Shown in pieces: positions 17,317 through 58,578 of a stretch of DNA of 64,000 bases. The notes below the pieces were generated by a model, which was not told the origin of the DNA, ran no database searches, and saw only the letters and a list, made by a program, of their open reading frames with translations. A program made the translations under genes and the position numbers. The stretch is from Humibacillus xanthopallidus (GTDB taxonomy: Bacteria > Actinomycetota > Actinomycetes > Actinomycetales > Dermatophilaceae). Each line of letters opens with the position of its first letter. Positions within the stretch are counted from its first letter, which is position 1. Location of the stretch: the NCBI RefSeq assembly GCF_006716675.1, contig NZ_VFPM01000001.1, positions 1,364,001 to 1,428,000 of the forward strand. The letters run 5' to 3'.

Positions 17317-17372
17317 ACGGGCTCCTCCATGAGGCTGGTCTGAGAGTGACACGAGTTTGTCAGTACAAAGTG

Positions 17373-40689: not shown

Positions 40690-40804
40690 GCGTCGAGAAG
40701 TGAGCACTCGACCGGAACGTGGCGTCGAGTGCCCAGATCCCCACACCTCAGACCGTCGAGTAGTGAGCACTCGACCGGAACTTGGCGTCGAGTGCCCAGT
40801 TTCC
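40690..40804. repeat. Two tandem palindromic repeat units (family B)
   Basis: Two units of about 52 bases (40690-40742 and 40752-40804) are nearly identical. Each can fold GCACTCGAC against GTCGAGTGC. The element lies between divergent genes and so may hold promoters. Related sequence recurs at 57434-57511. Confidence 0.8.
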
Positions 40805-42544: not shown

Positions 42545-43549
42545 TCACGCGTAGAAGGCGGGCTTCTCGATCATCTCGACCGTGACGACACCGTCGCCCG
42601 TGAGTGCCTTGACACCGGCGTCGCACACGCAGGCGGCGGCATACCCGTCCCACGACGTCGAGCCGGAGTGCTGGCCTGAGGCGACGCCGGTGATCCACTC
42701 CTGGACCTCGGTGACGAAGGCGCCCCAGAAGCGGTCGTTGTGGTCGCGGGCGATGGTGTTGCGGTGGCCCGAACCGTCGCGCACCTCGATGGCGTGCTGG
42801 TCAGAGAGGCTGACGGTGCCCTTCTCGGCAACCGCCTCGCAGCGGATGTCGTAGCCGAACTGGCAGTTGACGAAGATCTCGTCGTCGACCCGCACGCCGG
42901 ACGCGGTCTCGAGGATGAGCACGAGCGGGTCCTGGAGGTGCTCGAAGCGCAGCGACGTCTTCTTCGGCTTGTCGACGCGCGCCGAGACGAACTCCTCGCC
43001 GAGCAGCCAGCGCATCGTGTCGACCTCGTGGATCGCCGTGTCGTTGATCGCCATGTCCCACGTGTAGTGCTCGGGCACGGTGGGGTTGCGGTGCGCGCAG
43101 TGGACCATGAGCGTCTCGCCGAGCTCGCCCGAGTCGAGCAGCGCCTTCATCTCGCGATAGCTGCGGTCGAAGCGCCGCATGAAGCCGACGGTCACGAGAC
43201 GTCGCCCACCTGCCTGCTCCGCTTCCATGATGCGCAGCGCGGCCGCAGCCGTCGGCGTCAGCGGCTTCTCGCAGAAGACGGGCTTGCCCGCGGCGATGCA
43301 GGCCAGCACGTCGACCTCGTGGGCGGGGCCGTAGCTGCAGATCATCACGGCGTCGACCTCGTCGGCCGCGATGAGGCTCGCCGAGTCGGGGTATGCCGTC
43401 GCACCGATCCGCGTCGCCACCTCCTTCGCCCGCAGCTCGTCGACATCGGAGACGGCGACGACGCGCCCTCCCGCGATGACGGTGTGGATGCGGTCGATGT
43501 GGGCCTGGCCCATTCCGCCGGGGCCGATCATGCCGATGCGCACGGTCAT
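42545..43549 (-). CDS. iolG: Inositol 2-dehydrogenase
   Basis: The 334-residue protein has the NAD-binding [13 protein letters not shown] (about residues 5-17), the CEKPLTP lysine motif (about 95-101), [26 protein letters not shown] and [14 protein letters not shown] with the catalytic Asp and His. The GFMRR and CAHRNPTV stretches closely recall Bacillus IolG, which oxidises myo-inositol to 2-keto-myo-inositol. It is the last gene of the inositol operon. GAAGGAG nine bases before ATG 43549 supports the start. Confidence 0.87.
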
Positions 43550-43592
43550 TGGTGTCACTCCTTCGTGATGAGGATGCTCGGGCTCAGGACGC

Positions 43593-44525
43593 TCAGCGCA
43601 GGCCGAGACCGACCGACGCGAGGTACTCCCGCGTCTGGATGGCGTTGGGCAGCGGGTAGGACGGGTCACAGGGATACATGTCCTGCTCGCACACGACGTA
43701 GAGCTCCTTGTCGAGGTCGGCCAGGGCCTCGATGAGCGACGGCATGTCGGGGGCACCGGCGGGCGGTGCGACCGAGCAGCCCTTGGCGACGGCGAGACCG
43801 AAGGGCCAGTCCTCGTCGTGGGCCTGCTTGACGAGAGCCTCGTCCATGGCCTTGATGTGGACGTAGGAGATGCGCTCGGGGTACTTGCGGCACAGCTCCA
43901 TCGGGTCGCCGCCGCCGTAGACGATGTGGCCCGTGTCGAGGCAGAAGCCGACGTAGTCCGGGTCGGTCGCCTGGAAGACGCGGTCGATGTCCTCCGGCGT
44001 CTCGATGTGGCTGTCGCCGTGCGGATGCAGCACCATCTTGAGGCCGTAGTCCTCCTTCATGATGCGACCGAGCCTGTCAGCGTTGCTGATGTAGGCGTTC
44101 CACGCCTCCGTCGAGAGCACGCGGTCGTCGGTGAACTCCCACGTCTTGTCGTCGCGGAAGAGCGGCGGCAGGTGCACGATGTACTCCGCCCCGACGGCGG
44201 CATGCGTCTCGGCGATCTCGCGGAACGTCTTCTCCGTGTCGGCCCAGGCCTCGGGCTTGTGCAGGATGCCCCAGCCCGTGCCGGCAACGACGCGGAAGCC
44301 GCGCTTGTCCATCTCCTCCTGCAGGCGCCTCGGGTCCTTGGGGAAGTAGCCGAAGGGGCCCGTCTCCATGACCGAGAAGCCGGCCTCGGCCATCTCGTCG
44401 AGGGCGGTCTCCCAGTGGATCTGCTTGTCGTCCTCGGGGAACCAGACGCCCCACTGGTCAGGACACACGCCGATCGTCAGCTTGCTGTAGCGGGCATCGG
44501 TGTTGCGGGCCTTGGACGCGGCCAT
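43593..44525 (-). CDS. iolE: IolE-like inosose dehydratase (TIM barrel)
   Basis: The 310-residue protein is a xylose-isomerase-like TIM barrel. Likely metal-site residues lie in [49 protein letters not shown] and the late [15 protein letters not shown]. Its pattern of blocks follows IolE, which dehydrates 2-keto-myo-inositol to the diketo product, and the remaining inositol genes surround it. The cluster has no other IolE candidate. A 2-keto-inositol isomerase role (IolI-like) is the alternative. It lies 60 bases after iolA and 43 before iolG. Confidence 0.65.
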
Positions 44526-44585
44526 CGTTCGGTTCCTCTCGAAAGGTGTTGCAGTCAGGGGGTTCTAAGACATCTGGTGCTGGGG

Positions 44586-46085
44586 TCAGTCGTTCTGCGG
44601 GAAGCCGAGGTTGAGGCCACCGTGGCTCGGGTCGAGCCAGCGCGACGTGACGACCTTGCCGCGGGTGAAGAAGTGGACGCCCTCCATGCCGTGGGCGTGC
44701 GTGTCGCCGAAGAGGGAGTTCTTCCACCCGCCGAAGGAGTAGTACGACACCGGCACGGGGATCGGCACGTTGACGCCGACCATGCCGACCTCGACGTTGC
44801 GCTGGAACTTGCGAGCCGCACCACCGTCGTTGGTGAAGATGGCCGTGCCGTTGCCGTAGGGGTTGCTGTTGATGAGCTTCAGCCCCTCGTCGTAGGAGTG
44901 GACGCGCACGACCGAGAGCACCGGCCCGAAGATCTCGTCGTCGTAGAGCGACATGCCCGGCTTGACGTTGTCGAAGAGGGTCGGCGCGAGGAAGTAGCCC
45001 TCGCCGTCGGAGTCGTAGTCGTCGCGGCGGCCGTCGACGACGAGCGTCGCGCCCTCGGACACCCCGGCGTCGAGGTAGGAGGTCACCTTGTCGCGGTGCT
45101 GGGCCGTGACGAGCGGTCCCATGTCGCAGCCGCGCGTGCCGTCACCGGTCACGAGCTTGCCCATGCGGTCCTTGATCTTCGAGATGAGCTCGTCGGCGAT
45201 GGGCTCCACGGCGACGAGGGCCGAGATCGCCATGCAGCGCTCACCCGCCGAGCCGAAGCCCGCGTTGACGGCGGCGTCTGCAGCGAGGTCGAGGTCGGCG
45301 TCGGGCAGCACGAGCATGTGGTTCTTCGCGCCACCGAGAGCCTGGACCCGCTTGCCGTGGGCCGTGCCCGTCTCGTAGACGTACTTCGCGATCGGGGTCG
45401 AGCCGACGAAGGAGACGGACTTGACCTCGGGGTGCGTGAGCAGCGCGTCGACCGCCTCCTTGTCGCCGTTGACGACCTGCATGACGCCGTCGGGCAGGCC
45501 GGCCTCCTTCCAGAGGGCGGCGATCGCCAGCGCTGCCGACGGGTCCTTCTCGGACGGCTTGAGCACGACGGCGTTGCCGCAGGCGATGGCCACGGGGATG
45601 AACCACATCGGCACCATGGCCGGGAAGTTGAAGGGCGAGATGACCGCCACGACCCCGAGCGGCTGACGGATCGAGTAGACGTCGACGTTGGTCGAGGCGT
45701 TCTCGGAGAAGCCGCCGCGCACGAGCGTCGGGATGCCACAGGCGAACTCGGCGACCTCGAGGCCGCGGGTCACCTCTCCGAGCGCGTCGGAGAGCACCTT
45801 GCCGTGCTCTGCCGTGATGAGGGCCGCGATGTCGTGCTTGCGCTCGTTGAGCAGCTCGCGGAAGGCGAAGAGCACTCCGGTCCGCTTGGCGAGCGAGGCG
45901 TCGGCCCACTCCTCCCAGGCGCTCGCGGCGCCCTTGACGACCTCGTCGACGAGGGACGCGGACGCGAGGTCGAGCACCCCGGTCTGCTCACCCGTCGCGG
46001 GGTTGTAGACGGGCGAGGTGCGCTCGGCGGTGCCGGTCCACGACTGGCCGCCGATGAGGTGGGTGATGCGGGTGGGCGTGCTCAT
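44586..46085 (-). CDS. iolA: Methylmalonate-/malonate-semialdehyde dehydrogenase (CoA-acylating)
   Basis: The 499-residue aldehyde dehydrogenase has the MmsA/IolA features: VISPFNFPAMVPMWFIPVA (about residues 150-168), the NAD-binding SFVGSTPIAKYVYE and the catalytic Cys in GSAGERCMAISALV. Relatives turn malonate semialdehyde plus CoA into acetyl-CoA, the last step of inositol breakdown. The GxGxxG-like SFVGSTP and the Glu-poor active site are typical for the CoA-acylating group. It is flanked by iolH and the IolE-like gene in the same direction. Confidence 0.92.
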   Translation of the reverse strand: MSTPTRITHLIGGQSWTGTAERTSPVYNPATGEQTGVLDLASASLVDEVVKGAASAWEEWADASLAKRTGVLFAFRELLNERKHDIAALITAEHGKVLSDALGEVTRGLEVAEFACGIPTLVRGGFSENASTNVDVYSIRQPLGVVAVISPFNFPAMVPMWFIPVAIACGNAVVLKPSEKDPSAALAIAALWKEAGLPDGVMQVVNGDKEAVDALLTHPEVKSVSFVGSTPIAKYVYETGTAHGKRVQALGGAKNHMLVLPDADLDLAADAAVNAGFGSAGERCMAISALVAVEPIADELISKIKDRMGKLVTGDGTRGCDMGPLVTAQHRDKVTSYLDAGVSEGATLVVDGRRDDYDSDGEGYFLAPTLFDNVKPGMSLYDDEIFGPVLSVVRVHSYDEGLKLINSNPYGNGTAIFTNDGGAARKFQRNVEVGMVGVNVPIPVPVSYYSFGGWKNSLFGDTHAHGMEGVHFFTRGKVVTSRWLDPSHGGLNLGFPQND

Positions 46086-46137
46086 GGGAGTTTCCTTTGC
46101 TGGCAGGCTGGTTCAGGGGTATGCCGCGTGGCGGGCT

Positions 46138-47019
46138 TCAGGGGGAGACGAACGTGGGCGGGGTGTCCCACTTGTCGAGGTAGGAGCGGATCGTGTCGCG
46201 CATGTAGGTGCTCGACTCGCGAGCGCGGTCCTCCCAGGCGAAGACGCACGAGGTGACGATGCCGTCGAAGCCGATGCGCTCGAGACCGGAGAAGAACTGG
46301 TCGAAGTCGACCTCGCCCTGACCGATGTCGAGGTGCTGGTGGACGGTGACCTGCGAACCCGGCGGGTTGACGATGTAGCGCAGACCCGATGACGCCGTGT
46401 GGTCGTAGGCGTCGGCGACGTGGACCATCGTCAGCAGGTCGCCGGCCTTGTCCATGATGCCGTCGCAGTCGTTGCCCTGGTGGAACGTGTGCGGCGCGCA
46501 GTAGAGGAAGGAGACGGTGGGCGAGTTGATGCCCCGGATGAGGTCGACCGCCCGCTTGCCGTCCTCCTCCCAGTCGTCCGGGTGCGGCTCGAGGACGAGT
46601 CGGATGCCCTCCTGCTCGAAGACCGGCAGCAGCTCCTCCATCGACCGCCAGAACATCCCCTCGCACACCGCGGCCTGGCGGGGGTTGCCGTTGAACTCGG
46701 AGTTCATCGTGTCGACCCCGAGGTCGGAGGCGATCTGGATGGCGCGCTTCCAGTAGCGCACGGCGGCCTGGCGCTCGTCCTCGTCGGGACCGGACCAGCG
46801 GAAGAGCGGCAGGACGGACGACACCCCCACGCCGGCGCTCGCCAGGGCCGACCGGAAGGCGGCCACCCCTGCGTCATCGACCCGCGGGTGGTTGAAGAAG
46901 GGGATGAAGTCGTCGCGCGGCGACAGCTCGATCCACTCGTAGCCGAGCTCGGCGACGAGGCCGGGCATCTCGAGCAGGGGTGTATCGCGGAACATGTAGG
47001 GGTCGATGGCGAGCTTCAT
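46138..47019 (-). CDS. iolH: IolH-like TIM-barrel protein
   Basis: The 293-residue protein begins MKLAIDPYMFRDTPLLEMPG and contains YEWIELSPRDDFIPFFNHPR, VLEPHPDDWEEDG, VSFLYCAPHTFHQG and a late CVFAWEDRA block. These match the IolH group found in Bacillus and Corynebacterium inositol clusters. Its reaction is not firmly known; an isomerase/epimerase on an inositol intermediate is likely. It overlaps the iolD stop by four bases (ATGA), so translation is coupled. A metal site (Glu, His, Asp) is plausible. Confidence 0.8.
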   Translation of the reverse strand: MKLAIDPYMFRDTPLLEMPGLVAELGYEWIELSPRDDFIPFFNHPRVDDAGVAAFRSALASAGVGVSSVLPLFRWSGPDEDERQAAVRYWKRAIQIASDLGVDTMNSEFNGNPRQAAVCEGMFWRSMEELLPVFEQEGIRLVLEPHPDDWEEDGKRAVDLIRGINSPTVSFLYCAPHTFHQGNDCDGIMDKAGDLLTMVHVADAYDHTASSGLRYIVNPPGSQVTVHQHLDIGQGEVDFDQFFSGLERIGFDGIVTSCVFAWEDRARESSTYMRDTIRSYLDKWDTPPTFVSP

Positions 47020-48992
47020 GATGCTGACTCCGGAGTCGTCGGGGTGGTCGGGGCCACGAACGGGCGCTGCGTCGCCTTGTGGTCGAGGTACTCGCCGAAG
47101 GCGGCCTGGGTCGAGTCGAGCTCGGAGACCGCGCTCACGGGCACGTCCCACCACGACGCGCTGTCGGGTGCGTGGACGAGCGGGTCGGTCTCGACGTGGA
47201 TGACGATCGGGCCCCCGTCGGCTCGAGCGGCCTTGGCCTCCTTGATCGCCTGCTCGAGCTCGTCGAGCGAGTGCACCTCGATGACATGGGCACCGAGCGA
47301 CCGGGCGTTGGCGGCCAGGTCGACCGGCAGCACGTCACCGTCGAGGCGCCCCGACTCCTCGCCGCGGAAGCGGTAGCTCGTGCCGAAGCGCTGCGAGCCG
47401 AGCGACTCCGACAAGGATCCGATCGAGTGGAAGCCGTGGTTCTGCACGAGCACGACGATGACCTTGACGCGCTCCTGCACCGCGGTGACGAGCTCGGTCG
47501 GCATCATGAGGTAGCCGCCGTCGCCGACCATGGCGAAGACGTCGCGTGACTCGTCGGCGAGGCGGATGCCGATCGACGCCGGCACCTCGTAGCCCATGCA
47601 GGAGTATCCGTACTCGACGTGGTAGGCCTTGCGATCACGCACACGCCACAGCTTGTGCAGGTCGCCGGGCATGGAGCCTGCCGCGCAGAGCACGACGTCA
47701 CGCGGGTCGGTGAGCTCGTTGACCGCCCCGAGCACCTGTCCCTGCGTGAGCAGGCCCTCGGCGAGCCGGTCGGTGACCTCTGCCGCGGGGTGGTAGGCGG
47801 CCTCGACGGCAGCATCCCACTGCGACCACAGCGTGTACTGGCGTGAGCGGTAGTCGTCGTCGACGGCATACCCCTCGAGGGCGGACGCGAGAGCGGTCAG
47901 TGCCTCACGGGCGTCGGAGACGACCGACAGACCCGAGTGCTTGCCCGCGTCGAAGCGCGCGATGTTGATGTTGACGAAGCGAACTCCGTTGCCCTGGAAT
48001 GCGGTCCGCGACGCCGTCGTGAAGTCGCTCCAGCGCGTGCCGATCCCGATGACGACGTCGGCCTCGGCGGCGAGCGCGTTGGCGGCCGTCGTGCCGGTCG
48101 ATCCGATGGCACCCATCTCCTGCGGGTGCCCGTGCGGCAGGGACCCCTTGCCGGCCTGGCTCTCGCCCACCGGTATGCCGGTCTGCTCGCACAGTGCCCG
48201 CAGCGCCTCCTCGGCGCCGGAGTAGTGCACGCCGCCACCGGCGACGATGAGCGGCCGCTTCGCGGACCGGATGACGGCAGCGGCGTCGGCGATGTCGACG
48301 GCCTCCGGCAGCGGGCGTGCGACCCGCCATGTGCGCGGGGCGAAGAGCTCCACCGGCCAGTCGTGCGCCTCGGCCTGCACGTCCTGCGGCAGCGCGATCG
48401 TCACGGCACCGGTCTCGACCGGGTCGGTGAGCACGCGCATCGCCGAGATGAGCGCGGACGGCAGCTGCTCGGGGCGGCTCACCCGGTCGAAGAAGCGCGA
48501 GAGCGGGCGGAAGGCGTCGTTGACCGTCACGTCGGCGGCATACGGGGCCTCGAGCTCCTGGAGCACCGGGGAGCTGACCCGGGTCGCGAAGGTGCCGGAG
48601 GGCAGGAGCAGCACGGGGATGCGGTTGATCGTCGCGAGGGCGGCGCCGGTCAACATGTTCGTGGAGCCGGGCCCCACCGAGGCGGTGCAGGCCCACGTCT
48701 GGAGGCGGTCCTTCTGGCGCGCGTAGGCGACGGAGGTGTGCACCATGGCCTGCTCGTTGCGGGCGAGGACGTACGGAAGGTGCTCCTCACCATCGGCGAG
48801 CTCGTTCTGGAGCAGCGCCTGGCCGATGCCGGCGACGTTGCCGTGGCCGAAGATGCCGAAGCAGCCGGCGAAGAGCTTTTGCCGCTCGCCGTCGCGCTCG
48901 CTCCACTGGTTGGCGAGGAAGCGCACCACGGCCTGGGCCACGGTGAGCCGGACCGTCCCGGTTGCCGGGGTCTGCGGGGTTGCGCTCGTCAC
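47016..48992 (-). CDS. iolD: 3D-(3,5/4)-trihydroxycyclohexane-1,2-dione hydrolase
   Basis: The 658-residue protein is a thiamine-diphosphate enzyme. The N-terminal PYR domain has the catalytic Glu in ARNEQAMVH (about residues 79-87), the middle domain follows, and the C-terminal PP domain has the ThDP motif VGDGGYLMM to VLVQNHG (about residues 490-520). IolD opens the inositol ring by hydrolysing the dione to 5-deoxy-glucuronate. The length matches the family (about 640). It overlaps iolB at its start and iolH at its end, both as ATGA. Confidence 0.93.
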   Translation of the reverse strand: MTSATPQTPATGTVRLTVAQAVVRFLANQWSERDGERQKLFAGCFGIFGHGNVAGIGQALLQNELADGEEHLPYVLARNEQAMVHTSVAYARQKDRLQTWACTASVGPGSTNMLTGAALATINRIPVLLLPSGTFATRVSSPVLQELEAPYAADVTVNDAFRPLSRFFDRVSRPEQLPSALISAMRVLTDPVETGAVTIALPQDVQAEAHDWPVELFAPRTWRVARPLPEAVDIADAAAVIRSAKRPLIVAGGGVHYSGAEEALRALCEQTGIPVGESQAGKGSLPHGHPQEMGAIGSTGTTAANALAAEADVVIGIGTRWSDFTTASRTAFQGNGVRFVNINIARFDAGKHSGLSVVSDAREALTALASALEGYAVDDDYRSRQYTLWSQWDAAVEAAYHPAAEVTDRLAEGLLTQGQVLGAVNELTDPRDVVLCAAGSMPGDLHKLWRVRDRKAYHVEYGYSCMGYEVPASIGIRLADESRDVFAMVGDGGYLMMPTELVTAVQERVKVIVVLVQNHGFHSIGSLSESLGSQRFGTSYRFRGEESGRLDGDVLPVDLAANARSLGAHVIEVHSLDELEQAIKEAKAARADGGPIVIHVETDPLVHAPDSASWWDVPVSAVSELDSTQAAFGEYLDHKATQRPFVAPTTPTTPESAS

Positions 48993-49909
48993 TGAGCACC
49001 TCCAAAGGGGAGTCGGGGGTCGACCTGCTGGGTCGCCCAGGTGTCGCGCACCCAGCCGTGGGCCGGGTCGTCGCAGATGAGCCAGGACCGCTCCGTGCCG
49101 GGGCCGGCCATGACGTTGAGGTAGTAGAGGTCGTAGCCGGGGGCCGCCATCGCCGGGCCGTGCCAGCCGTGCGGCACGAGGACGACATCCCCCGAGCGCA
49201 CCTCGACGAGCACGTCGATCGGACGCTCGTCGGTGCCGTAGACCCGTTGGTAGCCCACGGGATCCGTGCCAGCGGCCGCCGGTGACCCCGCCTCGGGCGC
49301 CACCTCGAAGTAGTAGACCTCCTCGAGGTCGGTCTCGATGCCGGGCCGGTCCTCGTCGTGCTTGTGCGGCGGGTAGGAGCTCCAGTTGCCACCGGGGGTC
49401 AGCACCTCGCAGGCGATGATCGAGTCGGCCTCGAGCACGGCCGGGGTGCCGAAGTTGCGCACCTCGCGCGAGGCGATGCCGGCTCCGCGGAGCTCGACGG
49501 GCACGTCTGCGACGCCCACGTGGCGCAGCGGCGGCGTGTGCCGACGAGACGCGCGGGCGCCGCAGACGGCGACCTTGGCGGCGCCGCCCTCGGCGGTCAC
49601 CGTGACCTCGCAGTCGCGGGTCGCGTAGGCGACGTCGCTCGCTCCAGCGAAGACAGACGCACGGCCTGCGAGCAGCGCGTCGTGCGAGACCCCCTCGGGG
49701 TCGACGACCGTCACGGAGACCGAGCCGCGGAGGGGCACGACGATGTGCTCGAAGTCCGCCGCCGGCACCGTGCGGCTCTCACCGGCAGCCAGCGTCACGG
49801 CATACAGGCGGGTGTGCTCCCAGCTGTCGACGGACTCGTCGATGGCGACGTCCCATCCGGCGGCCGACGCCGACCCGAGGGGACGCACCCACCGTGCGTT
49901 GTCGCTCAC
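48989..49909 (-). CDS. iolB: 5-deoxy-glucuronate isomerase
   Basis: The 306-residue protein is a bicupin of the IolB type. It has an N-terminal half with DFEHIVVPLRGSVSV, and a C-terminal half with the metal ligands in SSYPPHKHDED (about residues 171-181), EEVYYFE and VLVPHGWHGPAMA. It isomerises 5-deoxy-glucuronate to 2-deoxy-5-keto-gluconate. Both ends overlap neighbours by four bases, placing it tightly between the aldolase and iolD genes. Length and motifs are normal. Confidence 0.92.
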   Translation of the reverse strand: MSDNARWVRPLGSASAAGWDVAIDESVDSWEHTRLYAVTLAAGESRTVPAADFEHIVVPLRGSVSVTVVDPEGVSHDALLAGRASVFAGASDVAYATRDCEVTVTAEGGAAKVAVCGARASRRHTPPLRHVGVADVPVELRGAGIASREVRNFGTPAVLEADSIIACEVLTPGGNWSSYPPHKHDEDRPGIETDLEEVYYFEVAPEAGSPAAAGTDPVGYQRVYGTDERPIDVLVEVRSGDVVLVPHGWHGPAMAAPGYDLYYLNVMAGPGTERSWLICDDPAHGWVRDTWATQQVDPRLPFGGAQ

Positions 49910-50823
49910 GCGGACACCCCGCTCCCGTGCACGAGGTCGGCAGCGATGTCGACCGCCGCGGCGACGTCACCGTCGGGCGGGAAGAGCAGCGCGCGTCCGA
50001 CGACGAGGCCGCGCACGGCGGGCAGGTCGAGCGCGCGACCCCAGGACGCGTACGTGTCGTGGGGGTCGCCCTGGGGGTCACCGCCGAGAAGGAGTGTCGG
50101 GAGGGTGGTCGCGTCCATGACCCGCTCGAGGTCGTCGACGACGGGCAGCTTGAGCCACGTGTGGGCGCTCGACGCGCCGAGGCCGGCCGCGATGTGGATC
50201 GACTTGATGGTGGAGTCGGGGTCGAGCTGGTTGACGACGCGCCCACCCTCGCGGGTCGAGAGGAAGGGCTCGACCATCGCCATGATGCCGCGGTCGGCGA
50301 GCTGCGTGACGGCCTGGGCGCTCGCCTCGAGCGTGGCAGCGGTGCCGGGGTCCTCGAGGCAGATGCGCGTCAGCATCTTGCCGCCGTCGATGCCGCGAGC
50401 TGCGATCTCGGCGGCCGTGTAGGCCGTGAAGCGGTCGTCGAGCTCGAAGCTCGCCCCCTGGAGGCCGCCGCGGTTCATCGACCCGATGACGACCTTGTTG
50501 TCGAGGGCGCCGAGGAGCAGCAGGTCGTCGAGGATGTCGGGGGTGCCGAGCACACCGTCGACACCAGGGCGCTCCAGCGCCGTGACGAGGCGGGCGAGCA
50601 GGTCGCTCCGGCTCGCCATCGCCGTGCCTGCTCCGCGGACGCCGAGCGCCCCCCGGGCGGGGTGGTCGGCGGCGACGAGAAGCATGCGGCCGTCGTCGCC
50701 GACGAGGGGGCGGCGCTGCCGGGCCGCCCAGCCGGCCGCGATACGACCGGGCTCCCGCACGCGCACCTCGGTCAGGTCGGCGACGGCGAGGCGGCTGGTG
50801 CTCGGGGTGTGCGTGGTGGTCAT
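49906..50823 (-). CDS. Cgl0158-type (beta/alpha)8 protein, candidate deoxy-ketogluconate-phosphate aldolase
   Basis: The 305-residue protein belongs to the Cgl0158/LacD-like group of class I aldolases, known from the Corynebacterium inositol cluster. It has LLVAADHPARGALGV, LGTPDILDDLLLL, IGSMNRGGLQGASFELDDRF, and a strand ending in THTWLKLPVV-like AHTWLKLPVVDD, whose Lys (in LKLPV) could form the Schiff base. No class II IolJ gene is present, so this protein may cleave 2-deoxy-5-keto-gluconate 6-phosphate. It overlaps iolB and iolC by ATGA at both ends. Confidence 0.75.
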   Translation of the reverse strand: MTTTHTPSTSRLAVADLTEVRVREPGRIAAGWAARQRRPLVGDDGRMLLVAADHPARGALGVRGAGTAMASRSDLLARLVTALERPGVDGVLGTPDILDDLLLLGALDNKVVIGSMNRGGLQGASFELDDRFTAYTAAEIAARGIDGGKMLTRICLEDPGTAATLEASAQAVTQLADRGIMAMVEPFLSTREGGRVVNQLDPDSTIKSIHIAAGLGASSAHTWLKLPVVDDLERVMDATTLPTLLLGGDPQGDPHDTYASWGRALDLPAVRGLVVGRALLFPPDGDVAAAVDIAADLVHGSGVSA

Positions 50824-51848
50824 CGTGCCTCCTCGGCAACGGGAGCGAATGATGCTGCGGCAGAGTCCGATCGGGCGCCCGCCAGGCGCTCCTCGACCTC
50901 GGCTGAGGTCGGCATGGCAGTCGAGCACTCGAGCTTGCTGGCGACGATCGCGCCGGCGACGTTGGCGAACTCGAGGATGCGGCGCAGGTCCCAGCCCTCG
51001 AGGAGGCCGTGACACAGCGCCCCGCCGAAGGCGTCACCCGCGCCGAGGCCGTTGACGACGTCGACGGGGTAGGGCGGCACCTCGACGCGCTCGTCACGAG
51101 TGGCGGCGAGCACGCCCTTGGGGCCCTGCTTGACGACCGCGAGCTCGACGCCGCGCTCGAGCAGCGCGTCGGCGGCTCGCTGCGGCTCGGTCTCGCCGAC
51201 GGCCACCTCGCACTCCTCGCGGTTGCCGACGGCGACCGTCACGTGCTCGAGCGCGCGCCCGACCTGGTCGCTCGCCTCGGCGGGGTCGCCCCAGAACATC
51301 GGGCGGTAGTCGAGGTCGAGGATCGTGTGGGCGCGCCGTCCGCGGGCCTCGAACGCTCGGAAGTGCGCGGCCCGGCTCGGCTCCTGCGAGAGGCCGGTGA
51401 CGGTGGACCAGTAGACGCGGGCGTCGCGGATCGCGTCGAGGGGCATCTCGTCGGGCTCGATGAGCAGGTCGGGAGCGATCGGGTAGCGGTAGAAGTAGAG
51501 CGGGAAGTCGTCGGGCGGGAAGACCTCGCAGAACGTCACGGGCGTCGGCGGGCCGTCGACGGCGGAGACGAAGCGGTCGTCGACGCCGAAGTCCTGCAGC
51601 GCCTCGTGGATGTAGCGGCCGAAGGCGTCGCGTCCGGTGCGCGTGATGAGCGCGACCCGGTGGCCGTGGCGTGCGGCGGCGACCGAGACGTTGGTCGCGC
51701 TGCCGCCGAGGAACTTCTCGAAGGTGCGCACCTTCTCGAGGCCGACGCCGTGCTGGAGCGGGTAGATGTCGACGCCCGTGCGCCCGATGGTGATGACGTC
51801 GTATGCCGCGTGGCTGGCTTCGGTGGTCGTGGTGGTCATGGTGGTCAT
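50820..51848 (-). CDS. iolC: 5-dehydro-2-deoxygluconokinase
   Basis: The 342-residue PfkB-family kinase has ITIGRTGVDIYPLQ (about residues 20-33), FLGGSATNVSVAAARHG, and the ATP/anion-hole motif NGLGAGDAFGG with its catalytic Asp (about residue 270). IolC phosphorylates 2-deoxy-5-keto-gluconate. ATG 51848 follows GAGAGGTG; an ATG three codons later is also possible. The stop overlaps the aldolase gene. It is second in the operon, 14 bases after the dehydrogenase stop. Confidence 0.9.
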   Translation of the reverse strand: MTTMTTTTTEASHAAYDVITIGRTGVDIYPLQHGVGLEKVRTFEKFLGGSATNVSVAAARHGHRVALITRTGRDAFGRYIHEALQDFGVDDRFVSAVDGPPTPVTFCEVFPPDDFPLYFYRYPIAPDLLIEPDEMPLDAIRDARVYWSTVTGLSQEPSRAAHFRAFEARGRRAHTILDLDYRPMFWGDPAEASDQVGRALEHVTVAVGNREECEVAVGETEPQRAADALLERGVELAVVKQGPKGVLAATRDERVEVPPYPVDVVNGLGAGDAFGGALCHGLLEGWDLRRILEFANVAGAIVASKLECSTAMPTSAEVEERLAGARSDSAAASFAPVAEEAR

Positions 51849-51862
51849 GGCGTCCACACCTC

Positions 51863-52867
51863 TCACAGGCTCGGGATCTCGTCGAGGGTGACCGGTCGGC
51901 CCTCGTGGCGGGACAGCTCGCACGCCTCGGCGACGCGGAACGCCTGAAGGGCGTCGTCGACGGTGCAGGGCGAGGGCAGCACCCCGCGGGCGACGGCGGC
52001 GAAGGCCGTGAGCTCGGCGCGGTAGGCGGGCAGGAAGCGCTCCATGAAGGACCAGTGCCTCGGGCCGGACGGGTAGGTCGCCCCGGGCTCGGCCGAGGTG
52101 ACGGCGAGCGAGTCGTCGTAGCCGACGCCGAGCGTGCCCTCGCTGCCGAGCACCTCCATGCGCACGTCGTGTCCGGCGCCGTTGTAGCGCGTTGCCGACA
52201 GCGAGACGAGGGTGCCGTCGTCGAGGGTGAGCACGGCGGCCGCGGTGTCGACGTCGCCGGCCTCGCTGAAGAAGTCGGCGCCCTTGTTGGCCCCCGTCGC
52301 ATAGACCGAGGCGACCTCGCGGCCGGTGACGAAGCGGATGATGTCGAAGTCGTGGATCGAGCAGTCGCGGAAGAGGCCGCCGCTCGTCGGGATGTAGGCC
52401 GCGTGCGGTGGGGACTGGTCGTGCGTCTGGGCACGGATGCTGTGCACGAAGCCGAGCTGGCCGGACGTGACAGCCTCTTGGGCGCGGCGGTAGCCGCAGT
52501 CGAAGCGACGCTGGAAGCCGACGTGCACGGGGGTGCTCGTCTGGGAGACGAGCTTGGCGAGCTCCATCGTCTCGTCGAGCGTCGCCGCGACCGGCTTCTC
52601 ACAGAAGGTCGGCGCGCCGGCCTCGATGCCGAGCCGCAGCAGCGGGGCATGACCGGGGGTGGCGGTCGCGATGACGAATCCGTCGACGCCGTCGGCGAGC
52701 ATCTCGGCCGGCGAGGCGGCGAAGCCGACCTCGAGACGCTCGGCCAGTGCTCGGGCGGCGTCGACGTCGAGGTCGCTGACGACGAGCTCGTCGACGTCAC
52801 TGAGGCTGCGCAGCGTCTCTGCGTGGAACGCCCCGATGCGTCCGACTCCGGCCAGTCCGATGCGCAT
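51863..52867 (-). CDS. Gfo/Idh/MocA-family dehydrogenase, inositol-dehydrogenase paralogue
   Basis: The 334-residue protein has MRIGLAGVGRIGAFHAE for dinucleotide binding, the CEKPVA lysine motif (about residues 92-97), VHVGFQRRFD and SIHDFDIIRFV with the active-site Asp and His. It is the first gene of the inositol operon. It may be a second inositol dehydrogenase, for example for scyllo- or chiro-inositol. AGGGAG seven bases before ATG 52867 is better placed than for the GTG two codons upstream. It reads away from the ABC transporter operon. Confidence 0.87.
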   Translation of the reverse strand: MRIGLAGVGRIGAFHAETLRSLSDVDELVVSDLDVDAARALAERLEVGFAASPAEMLADGVDGFVIATATPGHAPLLRLGIEAGAPTFCEKPVAATLDETMELAKLVSQTSTPVHVGFQRRFDCGYRRAQEAVTSGQLGFVHSIRAQTHDQSPPHAAYIPTSGGLFRDCSIHDFDIIRFVTGREVASVYATGANKGADFFSEAGDVDTAAAVLTLDDGTLVSLSATRYNGAGHDVRMEVLGSEGTLGVGYDDSLAVTSAEPGATYPSGPRHWSFMERFLPAYRAELTAFAAVARGVLPSPCTVDDALQAFRVAEACELSRHEGRPVTLDEIPSL

Positions 52868-52967
52868 GCGCACACTCCCTTGGGTGATCGAGCGCCGCGT
52901 GCACCGTCGGTGCGTCGCGGCTGTGGATGGACGGCCGCCTTGCGACGACCTCGTCCTGACGACATCG

Positions 52968-52997
52968 ATGCTCCAACCTCACCCCATGCCGTGTCAA
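52968..52997 (-). promoter_or_regulatory. Promoter of the inositol catabolic operon
   Basis: On the minus strand TTGACA (52997-52992) is followed after 18 bases by GAGCAT (52973-52968), which keeps the key A and T of a -10 box. Confidence 0.5.
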
Positions 52998-53002
52998 GCA
53001 AA

Positions 53003-53022
53003 TGTTAGGACATTCTGATGTT
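53003..53022. promoter_or_regulatory. Candidate GntR (IolR-like) operator
   Basis: GACATTCTGATGTT (53009-53022) contains the palindrome ACAT-N4-ATGT. Its reverse complement matches the site before the GntR gene (56623-56636) at 12 of 14 positions. The adjoining TGTTAGGACA (53003-53012) fits, on the reverse strand, the KGWCHTRACA motif that I recall for Corynebacterium IolR. Confidence 0.65.
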
Positions 53023-53033
53023 TGACCAATCTC

Positions 53034-53063
53034 TTGACAGGACGGGTCGCGCGGGTCCATTCT
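53034..53063 (+). promoter_or_regulatory. Promoter of the inositol ABC transporter operon
   Basis: TTGACA (53034-53039) and CATTCT (53058-53063) are 18 bases apart; the palindrome lies 11 bases upstream of the -35 box. Confidence 0.55.
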
Positions 53064-53236
53064 CCAAACGCTGGCACCGACGCCGGGACCGGCAGACATT
53101 CCTCACAGGCCCCTGGGTCGCATCGGCCGGATCGGCCGACTCGGCCGATGCCCACTGAACGGACGGATCCACCGTCACAGAAACGTCGCGCCACTCCGGC
53201 GACCGGGTCACCGCGACGCAACGAAAGGAATCAACG

Positions 53237-54232
53237 ATGACTCCGACTCGGACTCGCAAGAGTTTGACTGTCGCCGCCGCCGTGGCCACCGCGGCCGCCC
53301 TCGCCCTGGGCGCCTGCAGCGGTGGCGGCGCCACCAACACGACGTCCACGGGTGGCGGTGGAGGCGGGGGCAACTCCGGCTACACCTTCGCCATGATCAC
53401 CCACGAGAGCCCCGGAGACACCTTCTGGGACCGGATCAAGGCCGGCGCCAACCAGGCCGCCAAGGACACCGGGTCCACCCTCAAGTACTCCTCCGACCCA
53501 GACGCCACCAAGCAGGCCGTGCTCATCCAGAACGCGATCGACTCCAAGGTCGACGGCATCGCCACGACCCTGGTCACCCCGGACGCGCTCATCCCCACCG
53601 TCAAGAAGGCTGTCGCGGCGGGCATCCCGGTCGACAGCTTCAACTCCGGCCTCAACTTCTACAAGCAGGCCGGCTCCCTCGTGCACTTCGCCGCGGACGA
53701 GCGACTCGGCGGCCAGGGTGCTGGTGAGCGCGCCAAGGCCGACGGTGCCACCAAGATCCTCTGCGTCATCCAGCAGACCGGTTCCGTGGCGCTCGAGGAC
53801 CGCTGCGCCGGCGTCAAGGACTCGTTCCCCAACACCGAGAACATCCAGGTCAACGGCGCCGACGACGCGGCCGTCACCTCCGCTCTGCAGGCGAAGCTCA
53901 GCCAGGACCCGACGATCAACTGGGTCATCACCCTCGGCGCCGCTCAGGCTCTGGACACCATCAAGGCCGCCCAGGGCGCCGGGTCGAAGGCCAAGATCGG
54001 CACGTTCGACACCAACCCTGACGCTGCTCAGGCCGTGAAGGACGGCAAGATCCAGTTCTTCATCGACCAGCAGCCCTACCTGCAGGGCTACCTGTCGATC
54101 AGCCAGCTCTACCTGTTCAAGAAGAACGGCAACATCATGGGCGGCGGCAAGGCCGTCCTCACAGGTCCGTCGTTCGTCGACTCGTCCAACATCGACGTCA
54201 TCCTCCCGTTCGTGAAGCAGAACACCCGCTGA
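53237..54232 (+). CDS. Sugar (probably inositol) ABC transporter substrate-binding lipoprotein
   Basis: The 331-residue protein has a lipoprotein leader with LGAC (Cys27), a Gly-rich linker (about residues 38-46) and a type I periplasmic-binding fold (Peripla_BP_4) with FAMITHESPGDTFWDRIKAG, VDGIATTLVTPDAL and IDQQPYLQGYLSISQL. It captures substrate outside the membrane for the permease encoded next. The divergent inositol operon and shared operator suggest myo-inositol. A hairpin after the stop may keep this gene's message more abundant than its neighbours. Confidence 0.88.
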   Translation: MTPTRTRKSLTVAAAVATAAALALGACSGGGATNTTSTGGGGGGGNSGYTFAMITHESPGDTFWDRIKAGANQAAKDTGSTLKYSSDPDATKQAVLIQNAIDSKVDGIATTLVTPDALIPTVKKAVAAGIPVDSFNSGLNFYKQAGSLVHFAADERLGGQGAGERAKADGATKILCVIQQTGSVALEDRCAGVKDSFPNTENIQVNGADDAAVTSALQAKLSQDPTINWVITLGAAQALDTIKAAQGAGSKAKIGTFDTNPDAAQAVKDGKIQFFIDQQPYLQGYLSISQLYLFKKNGNIMGGGKAVLTGPSFVDSSNIDVILPFVKQNTR

Positions 54233-54241
54233 ACCCATCCC

Positions 54242-54274
54242 GTGGGGCCGGGTCGCTTCACGGCCCGGCCCCAC
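54242..54274 (+). terminator. Intercistronic hairpin after the binding-protein gene
   Basis: GTGGGGCCGGG (54242-54252) pairs with CCCGGCCCCAC (54264-54274) around an 11-base loop. In this place it may partly terminate or protect the upstream message. Confidence 0.7.
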
Positions 54275-54294
54275 CGAACAGCACTGGAGCTGTC

Positions 54295-55362
54295 ATGAGC
54301 ACACCTGTCAAGACCGACCCCTCGCCGGCGGCCCCATCCGAGGCCTCCAACCGCGTGTCCCTGGGCTTGTCCAACCGGCTGCTGGCCCGGCCGGAGATCG
54401 GCGCCCTCGTCGCCGCCATCGTCATCTTCATCTTCTTCCTCATCGTCGCGCCCGCCTTCCGGAGCGCGCCCGCCTTCTTCACCGTCCTCTACCAGGCCTC
54501 CACCATCGGCATCGTCGCCGTGGGGGTCGGGATGCTGATGATCGGCGGCGAGTTCGACCTCTCCGCCGGCGTCCTCGTCACCACCGCCGGGCTGTTCAAC
54601 GCGATGTTCTGCTACCAGCTCGGGATCAACCTGTGGGTCGGCGCGATCCTGTCGCTGGTGCTCTGTCTCTGTATCGGGTTCCTCAACGGCTACCTCGTCA
54701 TGAGAACCGGGATCCCAAGCTTCCTCATCACCCTGGGCACCTTCTTCATCCTCCAGGGGGTCAACCTCGGAGTGACCAAGCTCGTCACCGGCTCGGTGTC
54801 CAGCCCGAACATCAACCAGATGGCGGGCTACGACAGCCTGAACTGGATCTTCGCCGCTGAGTTCGAGATCGGTTCGATCACGCTGAACATCACAGTGATC
54901 TGGTGGCTGCTGTTCGTCCTGCTCTCGGCCTACGTGCTGCAGCGCACCAAGATCGGCAACTGGATCTACGCCGTCGGTGGCAACGCCGCCTCGGCTCGCG
55001 CCGTCGGCGTGCCCGTCACCGCGGTGAAGATCGGCCTCTTCATGACCGTGGCGTTCCTCGGCTGGTTCACCGGCATGCACTACCTCTACAACTTCAACGT
55101 CCTGCAGGCAGGCAACGGTGTCGGCAACGAGTTCCTCTACATCATCGCCGCCGTCGTGGGTGGCACCCTGCTGACCGGCGGCTACGGCAACGCCATCGGC
55201 GTCGCCCTCGGCGCCTTCATCTTCGGCATGACGAGCCTCTGCATCGTCTACGCCGGCTGGGACCCCAACTGGTTCCGGGCCTTCCTCGGCGTCATGCTCC
55301 TGCTCGCCGTCATGGTCAACCTCTACGTGAAGAAGCTCTCGACCACCCGAAAGGTGGGCTGA
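54295..55362 (+). CDS. Sugar ABC transporter permease
   Basis: The 355-residue protein has about ten membrane helices and the BPD_transp_2 pattern: [19 protein letters not shown] (about residues 75-93), [21 protein letters not shown], and a late [23 protein letters not shown] cytoplasmic loop that contacts the ATPase. It is an RbsC/FrcC-like permease. The start at 54295 follows GGAG by five bases. It ends two bases before the ATPase gene, so the two are co-translated. Confidence 0.9.
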
Positions 55363-55363
55363 C

Positions 55364-56179
55364 ATGACTGACACGATCGCCGAACACGCCGACAGCACGC
55401 TGTACAAGGGCGAGCCCCTGGTGCAGATGACCAACATCGGCAAGACCTACGGCGCCATCCGGGCCCTCAAGGGCATCAACCTGACCGTCAACGCCGGCGA
55501 GGTCACCTGCGTCCTCGGCGACAACGGCGCCGGCAAGTCGACGCTCATCAAGATCATCTCGGGCCTGCACCCGCACAACGAGGGGACGATGAAGGTCGAC
55601 GGCAAGGAGGTGTCGTTCAGCTCGCCGCGAGAGTCCCTCTCGCACGGCATCGCCACGGTCTACCAGGACCTCGCGGTCGTCAGCCTCATGGAGGTCTGGC
55701 GCAACTTCTTCCTCGGCTCCGAGATGGTGAGCGGCAAGGCGCCCTTGGCCCCGATGAGGATCAACGAGATGCGGCGCATCGCCGACCAGGAACTGCGCAA
55801 GATGGGCATCGTCGTCAAGGACATCAACCAGCCCATCGGCACGCTCTCCGGTGGCCAGCGCCAGTGTGTGGCGATCGCCCGGGCCGTCTACTTCGGTGCC
55901 CGCGTGCTCATTCTCGACGAGCCGACCGCCGCCCTGGGCGTCAAGCAGTCGGGCGTCGTGCTGAAGTACACGGCTGCCGCCCGTGACGCCGGGCTCGGCG
56001 TCGTCTTCATCACGCACAACCCGCACCACGCCTACCTCGTCGGCAACCACTTCGTCATCCTCAAGCTCGGCGAGGCGGTGCTCGACAAGAAACGGTCCGA
56101 GGTCCAGCTCGACGAGCTCACCCGCCAGATGGCCGGCGGAGACGAGCTCACCGAGCTCTCGCACGAGCTGCAGAAGTGA
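55364..56179 (+). CDS. Sugar ABC transporter ATP-binding protein (single domain)
   Basis: The 271-residue ATPase has Walker [11 protein letters not shown] (about residues 51-60), Q-loop VYQDLAV, the signature TLSGGQRQ (about residues 156-163), Walker [12 protein letters not shown] and the switch His in [12 protein letters not shown]. It has one nucleotide-binding domain, like FrcA, instead of the doubled RbsA form. It drives import through the adjacent permease and must form a homodimer. The gene starts one base after the permease stop region. Confidence 0.92.
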
Positions 56180-56192
56180 GGGAGGTGACGTC

Positions 56193-56606
56193 ATGAGCGT
56201 CGCCGTCGCACACCACACCCGCAGCTCGAGCGGACTCGCCCTGGCCGAGGGAGCCCGCCAGGCGGCATACCGCGGCACCGACCTGGTAGTCATCCACGTC
56301 GTGGAGTCGCTCGACAACGACATCGCCGAGGCCAACAAGGCCGGCATCTCCGATGCCGTCGAGGCAGCCCTCGCGGCGACCTCGCTGCCCGACCTGCGCT
56401 GGGACGTGCGTCTCGTCGCCGGCGGCAGCGAGATCTCCCAGGTGTCGGAGGCGTTGCTCGGTGCCGTCGAGGAGCTCGGGCCCGAGCTGCTCGTCATCGG
56501 GGCTCGCCGTCGCTCGCCCCTGGGCAAGGCGTTCCTCGGCAGCATCGCGCAGAACATCATCCTCGACGCCGACGTGCCGGTGCTCGTCGTCAAGAGCCCG
56601 AGATGA
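56193..56606 (+). CDS. Universal stress protein (UspA family)
   Basis: The 137-residue protein is one Usp domain: SVAVAHHTRSSSGLALAEGA at the N-terminus, a DLVVIHVVESL strand, and the ATP-binding VIGARRRSPLGKAFLGSIAQ (about residues 104-123), which keeps the G-x2-G-x9-G(S/T) spacing only loosely. It probably binds ATP or AMP. It lies 13 bases after the ATPase gene with a GGAGG site, so it is likely the last member of the transporter operon; a regulatory role in uptake is possible. Confidence 0.8.
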   Translation: MSVAVAHHTRSSSGLALAEGARQAAYRGTDLVVIHVVESLDNDIAEANKAGISDAVEAALAATSLPDLRWDVRLVAGGSEISQVSEALLGAVEELGPELLVIGARRRSPLGKAFLGSIAQNIILDADVPVLVVKSPR

Positions 56607-56622
56607 TGCCCTGGGGTGTGCT

Positions 56623-56636
56623 GACATGAGAATGTC
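56623..56636. promoter_or_regulatory. Candidate GntR operator, autoregulatory
   Basis: GACATGAGAATGTC has five-base arms around a four-base centre. It lies 36 bases before the GntR start and matches the palindrome in the divergent inositol region. Confidence 0.65.
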
Positions 56637-56659
56637 TTCTCACTCCTGCGCCGAGTCGT

Positions 56660-56665
56660 TAGTCT
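56660..56665 (+). promoter_or_regulatory. -10 box of the GntR gene, leaderless
   Basis: TAGTCT ends six bases before the ATG at 56672. There is no ribosome site, and the operator lies where the -35 region should be approached. Confidence 0.55.
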
Positions 56666-56671
56666 GCGGCC

Positions 56672-57412
56672 ATGTCCACGCCAGTTGACGTCCGCATCGA
56701 CCGGGAGACGCCCGTACCGCTCTATCACCAGCTGGCCGAGCAGCTGAGTGCCGCGATCGCGCGGGGCGACCTCCAGCCGGGGGACGCCTTCGAGAACGAG
56801 GTCGCGATGGCCGAGCGGCTCGGGCTCTCTCGGCCGACGGTGCGTCGAGCCATCCAAGAGCTGGTCGGGCAAGGTCTGCTCCTGCGACGCCGGGGTCTCG
56901 GCACCCGGGTCGCGGGGCGGCAGATCCACCGGAAGGCCGAGCTGACAAGCCTCTACGACGACCTGCGCCGCGAGGGCTCGGGTGACCCTCACACCGAGGT
57001 GCTCGTGCACGAGGTCGTCACCGACGAGGTGGCGGCGACCGCGATGGGCCTGCCGGCCGACACCCCGCTGCTGCGCCTGCTGCGGCTGCGCCGTGACGGC
57101 GACAGGCCACTCGCGATCCTGCAGAACTGGCTGCCGCCGGCCTACTCCGACATCACGCGCGAGCAGCTCGAGACCGACGGTCTCTACGCGTTGCTGCGGG
57201 CCAAGGGTGGCAAGCCCGTCGTCGCCCACCAGCGCATCGGGGCCAGGCCGCCCACGGCGACCGAGCGCAAGCACCTCATGCTCACGCCGTCACAGCCCGT
57301 GCTCACCATGACGCGGGTGGCGTTCGACGCGGTCGGTGGGCCGGTCGAGTACGGCGACCACTGCTACCGCGCCCAGGACTACTCCATCGAGGTCATGCTC
57401 GACGAACGCTAG
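56672..57412 (+). CDS. GntR-family (HutC/UTRA type) transcriptional regulator
   Basis: The 246-residue protein has an N-terminal winged helix (PLYHQLAEQLSAAIARGDLQ, about residues 16-35, and RLGLSRPTVRRAIQELVGQG) and a C-terminal UTRA effector domain (TPLLRLLRLRRDGDRPLAIL, VEYGDHCYRAQDYSIEV). It is the only regulator in the inositol region. It probably represses the transporter and catabolic operons through the shared palindrome until an inositol intermediate binds. The start is fixed by the -10 box six bases upstream. Confidence 0.9.
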   Translation: MSTPVDVRIDRETPVPLYHQLAEQLSAAIARGDLQPGDAFENEVAMAERLGLSRPTVRRAIQELVGQGLLLRRRGLGTRVAGRQIHRKAELTSLYDDLRREGSGDPHTEVLVHEVVTDEVAATAMGLPADTPLLRLLRLRRDGDRPLAILQNWLPPAYSDITREQLETDGLYALLRAKGGKPVVAHQRIGARPPTATERKHLMLTPSQPVLTMTRVAFDAVGGPVEYGDHCYRAQDYSIEVMLDER

Positions 57413-57433: not shown

Positions 57434-57511
57434 CGTCGAGTGCCCATTTCCCCACGTCACACAGTGGGCACTCGACGCCACTCCCCGTCGAGTGCCCACT
57501 TCTCCACGCAG
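57434..57511. repeat. Palindromic repeat cluster (family B)
   Basis: CGTCGAGTGCCCA (57434-57446) pairs with its perfect reverse complement at 57465-57477, and a further direct copy follows at 57487-57509. It shares its core with the tandem units at 40690-40804. It lies between the GntR gene and the next dehydrogenase gene. Confidence 0.8.
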
Positions 57512-57531: not shown

Positions 57532-58578
57532 GTGAGCCCTCATCCCCTGCCCGGCGCCCTTCCAGCGCCGCGGCGTCCGACCGCCGACTCCGTGCCGAGC
57601 CTGCGCTGGGGCGTGCTCGGCACAGGGTGGATCGCCTCCCGCTTCGTCGCCTCGCTGCAGTCGTCGACGACACAGCGAGTCGTGGCGGTCGGGTCGCGCA
57701 CCCAGGCGTCCGCCGATGCCTTCGCCACCGCCCACTCGATCGAGAGAGCAGTTCGTCGGGCGACCGCACTCGTCGCCGACCCGGGCGTCGACACCGTCTA
57801 TGTCGCGACGCCGCACCACCTGCACCGAGAGAGCGCCCTGCTCGCGATCGAGGCCGGCAAGCACGTGCTCGTCGAGAAGCCGCTGGGTCTCAATGCCATT
57901 GAGGCGCAGGAGATCTCGGATGCAGCTGCGGCTGCCGGCGTGTTTTGCATGGAGGCGATGTGGTCGCTCTTCCTGCCTCGATTCGACGTCGTGCGGCAGG
58001 TGCTCGACCTCGGAATGCTCGGTGATGTCCGCACCGTGCTGGCCGACCACGGTGAGCACTTCGACGCACCGCACCGCATCCTCGACCCGGCGATGGCCGG
58101 TGGCTCCCTGCTCGACCTCGGCACCTATGTCACGACTTTCGCGACGTGGGTGCTCGGGCCGGCATCACGCGTGCAGGCATCCGGATCGATGACCCCGAGG
58201 GGCGTCAACGGTCAGGCCGCGATGGTGCTCACGCACGCTGGCGAGGCGACGAGCGTGCTGCACTCGACCCTGCTCACGCGTACTCCGACCGCGGCGACCA
58301 TCGCCGGGACGGCGGCCACCCTCACCCTGCCCGGCCCGTTCTTCCAACCCGGCGATGTCGCCGTGACCTCTGCCGACGGGTCTCGCACGCTCACGTGGAC
58401 CGAGCCCGAGCCGATAGGCCACGGTGCGCTCTTCCACTCTGCGCTCGAAGCGGCACGCTGCATCGGGGAAGGCCTGCTCGAGTCTCCGCTGCACCCGGCC
58501 CGCGCGGTCGTCAGGAACATGACAGCCCTCGACGAGGTCACCCGCCAGGTGGGCGTCACCTACGCCCCCACCCGCTGA
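57532..58578 (+). CDS. Gfo/Idh/MocA-family dehydrogenase
   Basis: The 348-residue protein has LRWGVLGTGWIASRFVASLQ, the VEKPLGLNAIEAQEI lysine region (about residues 120-134), CMEAMWSLFLPRF and GGSLLDLGTYVTTF. The EAMW signature and the DLGxY active site resemble dimeric dihydrodiol dehydrogenase/deoxyglucose-type members more than IolG. It stands alone after the repeat cluster. A GTG start at 57532 is assumed, with the first conserved strand about 25 residues in, so the true start may be later. Confidence 0.85.
   Translation: MSPHPLPGALPAPRRPTADSVPSLRWGVLGTGWIASRFVASLQSSTTQRVVAVGSRTQASADAFATAHSIERAVRRATALVADPGVDTVYVATPHHLHRESALLAIEAGKHVLVEKPLGLNAIEAQEISDAAAAAGVFCMEAMWSLFLPRFDVVRQVLDLGMLGDVRTVLADHGEHFDAPHRILDPAMAGGSLLDLGTYVTTFATWVLGPASRVQASGSMTPRGVNGQAAMVLTHAGEATSVLHSTLLTRTPTAATIAGTAATLTLPGPFFQPGDVAVTSADGSRTLTWTEPEPIGHGALFHSALEAARCIGEGLLESPLHPARAVVRNMTALDEVTRQVGVTYAPTR

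Follow-up and report, generated by a model that had tools for sequence, protein, structure and literature searches.

How does Humibacillus xanthopallidus control its inositol genes, and does one operator serve both the divergent operons of the cluster and the gene of their presumed regulator? The question is raised by a 64,000-nucleotide stretch of its genome (hereafter the window), in which a short palindrome occurs between two divergent operons and again before a GntR-type gene. The answer that we favor, with a probability of about 0.86, is that a predicted IolR-like repressor of the HutC type would bind one conserved operator, at the divergent promoter and before its own gene, and would hold the two operons and its own gene silent until a signal derived from inositol appears. 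Inositol catabolic and import operons under a GntR-type regulator are a known kind of control, of which this locus is an ordinary example.

Gene content of the cluster

Domain and profile matches to the open reading frames of the window identified a full inositol-degradation set of nine catabolic genes, together with three importer genes and a GntR gene (Table 1), in line with the complete regulon of the original prediction. The catabolic genes run on the minus strand from 52873 down to 42545, in the order iolG1, iolC, Cgl0159-like gene, iolB, iolD, TIM barrel gene, iolA, iolE and iolG2. Between neighbors there is either an overlap or a gap of no more than 60 bases, so that they are likely read as a single transcript. 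The plus-strand side holds a sugar-type ABC importer (binding protein, permease and ATPase), a gene with a universal stress protein domain and the GntR gene. NCBIfam cut-offs are passed by iolA, iolB, iolC and iolD, and iolE and both iolG proteins are best matches below cut-off. The genes that together define the IolCatGC core (iolB, iolC, iolD and iolE) are all present, with iolE scoring 160 of the 290 bits of its cut-off. Their order here, C-B-D-E, is that of 28% of the positive actinobacterial species, according to PMC9430895.

The importer ATPase (55364-56179) has 271 aa and one ABC domain, and the best-matching NCBIfam models of sugar-importer ATPases are about 500 aa long. The universal stress protein gene (56193-56606) also lies between the ATPase and gntR genes in 10 of the 11 loci L084-L094. 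After gntR, on the same strand, a further Gfo/Idh/MocA oxidoreductase is encoded at 57532-58578, as it is in seven close loci (L084-L090); it is perhaps another inositol dehydrogenase. The region after gntR (57435-57499) also carries a 13-base repeat, GTCGAGTGCCCAC, in both orientations, with one-mismatch forms near 40.7 kb (40700-40799). With 82 exact copies in the genome (33 forward and 49 reverse, against 0 and 2 for the reversed control), often in small clusters, this repeat is a dispersed REP-like family.

Table 1 Features of the inositol locus, with positions in the window
Feature	Position	Strand	Basis
iolG2, inositol dehydrogenase family	42545..43549	-	NCBIfam inositol 2-dehydrogenase/D-chiro-inositol 1-dehydrogenase best, 405 bits, cut-off 540; start ~43549, listed frame longer
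iolE, inosose dehydratase family	43593..44525	-	TIGR04379 160 bits, below cut-off 290; PF01261
iolA, methylmalonate-semialdehyde dehydrogenase	44586..46085	-	TIGR01722 681 bits, above cut-off
TIM barrel resembling sugar isomerases; context suggests IolH/IolI-like	46138..47019	-	PF01261
iolD	47016..48992	-	TIGR04377 900 bits, above cut-off
iolB	48989..49909	-	TIGR04378 260 bits, above cut-off; PF04962
Cgl0159-like protein, likely aldolase step, putative IolJ role	49906..50820	-	PF22649 429 bits; listed frame longer
iolC	50820..51863	-	TIGR04382 384 bits, above cut-off; listed frame longer
iolG1, inositol dehydrogenase family	51863..52873	-	TIGR04380 287 bits, below cut-off 355
GAGCAT, predicted -10 of catabolic operon, 18 nt from -35	52968..52973	-	Sequence; weak
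TTGACA, likely -35 of catabolic operon	52992..52997	-	Sequence; kept in 12-row alignment
Operator 1 core TGT-N4-ACA, reads TGTTAGGACA	53003..53012		Genome pattern scan, relatives, lineage alignment
Operator 1 third half-site ATGT	53018..53021		Genome pattern scan, lineage alignment, offset counts
Weaker second dyad TGTTTGACCA, holds fourth half-site	53019..53028		Lineage alignment, sequence
TTGACA, likely -35 of importer operon	53034..53039	+	Sequence; kept in 12-row alignment
CATTCT, predicted -10 of importer operon, 18 nt from -35	53058..53063	+	Sequence; weak
ABC importer sugar-binding protein	53237..54232	+	PF13407; best NCBIfam = rhizopine model 164 bits, below cut-off 420
ABC importer permease	54295..55362	+	PF02653
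ABC importer ATPase, 271 aa	55364..56179	+	PF00005
Universal stress protein domain gene	56193..56606	+	PF00582, on longer frame 55983-56606
Operator 2 core TGTGCTGACA	56617..56626		Genome pattern scan, alignment, shuffles
Operator 2 third half-site ATGT	56632..56635		Genome pattern scan, shuffles
TTCTCA, predicted -35 of gntR, overlaps operator 2 right end	56637..56642	+	Sequence
TAGTCT, predicted -10 of gntR	56660..56665	+	Sequence; TAGTC kept in most of lineage alignment
gntR, HutC-type regulator, IolR-like	56672..57412	+	PF00392, PF07702; context in relatives

A regulator of the HutC type

The regulator combines an N-terminal GntR winged helix (PF00392, 52 bits) with a C-terminal UTRA domain (PF07702, 105 bits), both above cut-off, which is the architecture of the HutC subfamily. 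Bacillus-type IolR belongs to the DeoR family; neither this architecture nor the RpiR architecture of the Sinorhizobium type was found in the GntR+UTRA protein, whose only DeoR-type match, 22.7 bits to a helix-turn-helix model with a cut-off of 21, compares with 105 bits for UTRA. The closest PDB chain by sequence is 2ra5, a putative transcriptional regulator presumably from S. coelicolor (E 5e-61, residues 5-243), and the next best match to the regulator in its own genome reaches only E 9e-8.

Some GntR match was present in 56 of the 58 genomes searched, which says little by itself. In 21 of 33 stretches around a GntR match (L031-L063), the GntR gene is divergent from iolC or iolG1. Among the nearest loci, the best 80 of 150 matches being kept, the stretch around the match includes iolA, B, C, D, E or J in 75 of 80, so that the regulator gene stands beside inositol catabolic genes in relatives, as expected of a GntR-type actinobacterial IolR. 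In the same best 80 of 150, the nearest regulator is from Humibacillus xanthopallidus (96% identity), followed by those of Terrabacter species (88-90%), and no Corynebacterium is included. We call the regulator IolR-like, a provisional name suggested by gene context and operator.

The operator is wider than the palindrome first noticed

The original prediction was built on a 14-base palindrome with an ACAT-N4-ATGT centre, GACATTCTGATGTT at 53009-53022 and GACATGAGAATGTC at 56623-56636, and the two copies indeed agree at 12 of 14 positions when the second is reverse-complemented. The proposed centre had to be moved: the conserved one is TGT-N4-ACA, and the palindrome joins the right half of that core to a third half-site. 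The conserved element, 6 bases wider than the palindrome, comprises the core TGT-N4-ACA, the third half-site ATGT and a weaker fourth. We rejected the palindrome as the recognition unit, since it is at chance level in the window and relatives keep TGT-N4-ACA instead.

The motif of C. glutamicum IolR is KGWCHTRACA. The exact match claimed for it stands at operator 1, where TGTCCTAACA (53003-53012, minus strand) fits at every position, and does not extend to operator 2, whose core (56617-56626) is off at 1 of 10 positions. Neither the palindrome nor KGWCHTRACA is significant alone, because GACAT-N4-ATGTC, when up to 2 mismatches are allowed, matches the window 13 times where 15.3 matches are expected, and KGWCHTRACA 3 times where 1.0 is expected, a number that 11 of 100 shuffles reach.

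The pattern of three half-sites, TGTNNNRACATNNNNATGT, has exactly 2 matches in the 5.27-Mb genome, both at these operators, and its reversed control has 0; in the window it has 2 exact matches, and 100 shuffles of the window gave 0. When one mismatch and a final Y are allowed, the only further place is C3:329941, two other rows being the same sites on the opposite strand. The exact pattern ending in ATGTC was found class-wide in 8 of 148 genomes, including the genome studied here, a count that carries no weight either way. Operator 2 does not fit the stricter pattern WTGTNNKRACAW. Three further WTGTNNKRACAW places (window 17357-17368, C1:193929 and C4:238296) were not taken as regulon members, as each falls within a putative gene, a stop-to-stop frame 168 or more codons long.

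Both cores, TGT-TAGG-ACA and TGT-GCTG-ACA, have the operator geometry of the HutC subfamily, with 4 nt between GT and AC, and are predicted to be bound accordingly by a protein of this type. Most HutC sites have this spacing according to PMC4494728, and they share the GT-N4-AC palindrome with the operators here.

The third half-site was followed by counting bases at each offset from the core, after duplicate contexts and sites close to the end of a stretch had been removed. An A at offset 15 together with a T at offset 18 occurs in 56 of 79 gntR-side sites, whereas the opposite side of the core has the pair in 1 of 79. At one further offset the gntR-side sites reach 24 of 79, which probably reflects promoter sequence shared among related genomes. 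Before other iol genes, the third half-site is present at 17 of 37 sites, against 0-6 at other offsets; after removal of the lineage of the window the signal is modest (9 of 28 against 0-5).

Conservation in relatives

The comparison of related genomes that the original prediction had called for points the same way, the motif being conserved. The core was found in 31 of 38 regions, compared with a mean of 1.3 and a largest value of 4 in shuffled sets (n=200), although the pattern was chosen after reading these same regions and the count is not blind. The 38 regions are 33 from upstream of gntR in relatives, three of their divergent regions and two of the window; L064, which has no gntR match, was left out of the 33 stretches and of the 38 regions. 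Among the seven regions in which the core is missing are those before gntR in L032 and L033.

Within 350 bp upstream of gntR, the core is present in 72 of the 80 nearest loci (best 80 of 150), a set collected after the 38 regions and drawn in part from the same genomes. All 83 matches to the stricter WTGTNNNRACAW in the 977 kb of these 80 loci lie at most 450 bp upstream of mapped cluster genes, and none is inside a mapped gene. In another set of 34 stretches, 54 of 66 strict sites are upstream of mapped genes, none is inside one and 12 are not near a mapped gene; the two sets apparently have some genomes in common (for example L084 and G001) and are not fully independent. No strict site at all was found in the loci L129, L138, L146 and L152. 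Together, this comparative evidence supports the idea that one operator of an IolR-like GntR regulator is shared by both places, and the original prediction is broadly correct.

The two places are not kept equally. Eight of the 80 loci have no core before gntR, and the core pattern before gntR is missing in 4 of 12 aligned rows of the lineage, so conservation is weaker for the predicted autorepression than for the divergent site. Four of the eight (L085, L092, L093 and L094) keep a core in the region between iolG1 and the binding-protein gene (sbp); the other four are the loci with no strict site. At the divergent site, the Humibacillus/Terrabacter lineage conserves an island of about 47 bp, from TTGACA box to TTGACA box: over these 47 columns, the mean pairwise identity is 85%, compared with 52% in the flanks (12 rows, lineage of the window). 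A profile of the 80 loci left out 22 that had no forward core far enough inside the 250-base stretch, and one column profile of the relatives' operators left out five rows of the lineage of the window.

Two close relatives, L031 and L088, carry a second core, TGTCTTGACA, in the iolG1-sbp region; it overlaps the importer -35 TTGACA and is 27 bases away from the first core. At this place the window has TCTCTTGACA.

Promoters

Operator 1 forms the array TGT-N4-ACA-N6-TGT-N4-CCA (53003-53028), which is separated by 5 nt from a TTGACA box at either end. These boxes had been described as facing promoters; they point away from each other (52992-52997 on the minus strand and 53034-53039 on the plus strand). 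The array of operator 2 (56617-56642) overlaps TTCTCA, the predicted -35 of gntR. A promoter scan of the divergent and gntR-upstream regions returned no promoter-like site at its thresholds. The gntR message is likely leaderless, as judged from the TAGTCT hexamer at 56660-56665, from which transcription would start at about the ATG at 56672. As no terminator-like site was found in 56550-56700, gntR may also be transcribed from the importer promoter.

Discussion

The locus can be set beside two known systems. The binding motif of SCO6974 of Streptomyces coelicolor, WTGTMNKRACAW, resembles the operator core described here, and the title of the paper on SCO6974 calls it a GntR-type repressor of inositol catabolism. 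As for the C. glutamicum system, the likeness lies in a GntR-type regulator together with inositol genes, and in the fit of operator 1 to KGWCHTRACA. SCO6974 is a GntR-type regulator of inositol genes (PMC6295645), C. glutamicum IolR is a GntR-type repressor of inositol transport and catabolism genes (PMC9603128), and autoregulation of iolR is mentioned (PMC8634428). PMC9603128 also names secondary transporters, IolT1 and IolT2, for inositol uptake in C. glutamicum, whereas here an ABC-importer operon and the catabolic operon share a divergent operator.

How such control would work can be proposed from this arrangement. Without inositol, a GntR dimer would sit on the operator core, and the third and fourth half-sites would provide a weaker contact or hold a second dimer. 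The bound protein would block RNA polymerase at both divergent -35 boxes, which the array approaches to within 5 nt, and also at the -35 predicted for gntR. Both operons and gntR itself would stay off until inositol or a catabolic intermediate, acting as ligand, releases the protein. The importer encoded by the plus-strand operon, whose substrate is likely inositol in view of its context, would carry it into the cell.

Repression rather than activation is suggested by SCO6974, called a repressor in the title of its paper. It is also suggested by C. glutamicum IolR, given as a repressor in PMC9603128. A GntR protein that binds the same sites but activates one or both divergent operons, repressing at most its own gene, has to be weighed against these precedents and against the overlap of operator 2 with the predicted gntR -35. 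The position of the array just upstream of both TTGACA boxes, not over them, would also allow activation; the cores are about 45 bases upstream of the likely start sites, a position that activators may use as well, and the predicted -10 hexamers are weak, as in promoters needing help. On balance, we regard activation as quite improbable.

We give marginally less credit to a different regulator, such as one of global carbon control or another protein of the GntR family, being the one that occupies the element while the neighboring GntR protein acts elsewhere. Such a reading would draw on the loci that keep a gntR gene with no core before it, and on the pairing of operator and GntR protein being itself a prediction. 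However, the full pattern is limited to these two places in the genome, unlike a global site, and the core, which has HutC geometry, is found together with gntR in 72 of the best 80 of 150 loci. Chance, or promoter symmetry in which TGTCAA/TTGACA boxes give palindrome-like stretches, is disfavored as the source of the repeat and seems barely credible. The palindrome alone is no commoner than expected and the two -35 boxes are part of the conserved island, but the wider pattern appeared in none of 100 shuffles, 31 of 38 regions have the core where shuffled sets average 1.3, and the core lies outside the TTGACA boxes and is kept before other iol genes.

Within the repressor reading, a more specific proposal concerns the 26-bp array of four half-sites, which has a -35 box 5 nt off each side. 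Two HutC dimers 16 bp apart, on opposite helix faces, might lock both divergent promoters, and the extra half-site might be functional across actinobacterial families instead of being a relic; we hold this only tentatively and rather lean against it. According to PMC4494728, sites in four HutC groups have an additional half-site that is weaker and stands 7-12 nt away from the centre. As the third half-site here is 12 nt from the centre, within that range, it is not new in kind. GntR-type inositol repressors are known in Corynebacterium and Streptomyces. A literature search on inositol and GntR in Intrasporangiaceae found no report, from which we make no claim of absence from print.

For the Humibacillus/Terrabacter group, these results amount to a well-supported regulon prediction: about 15 kb of inositol genes would be governed from two operators. 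The fixed 12-nt distance of the extra half-site offers an easy test, on a simple switch of two promoters, of what such boxes do, a question left open in PMC4494728. The refined operator, core plus third half-site, could be used to annotate inositol regulons in other actinobacteria.
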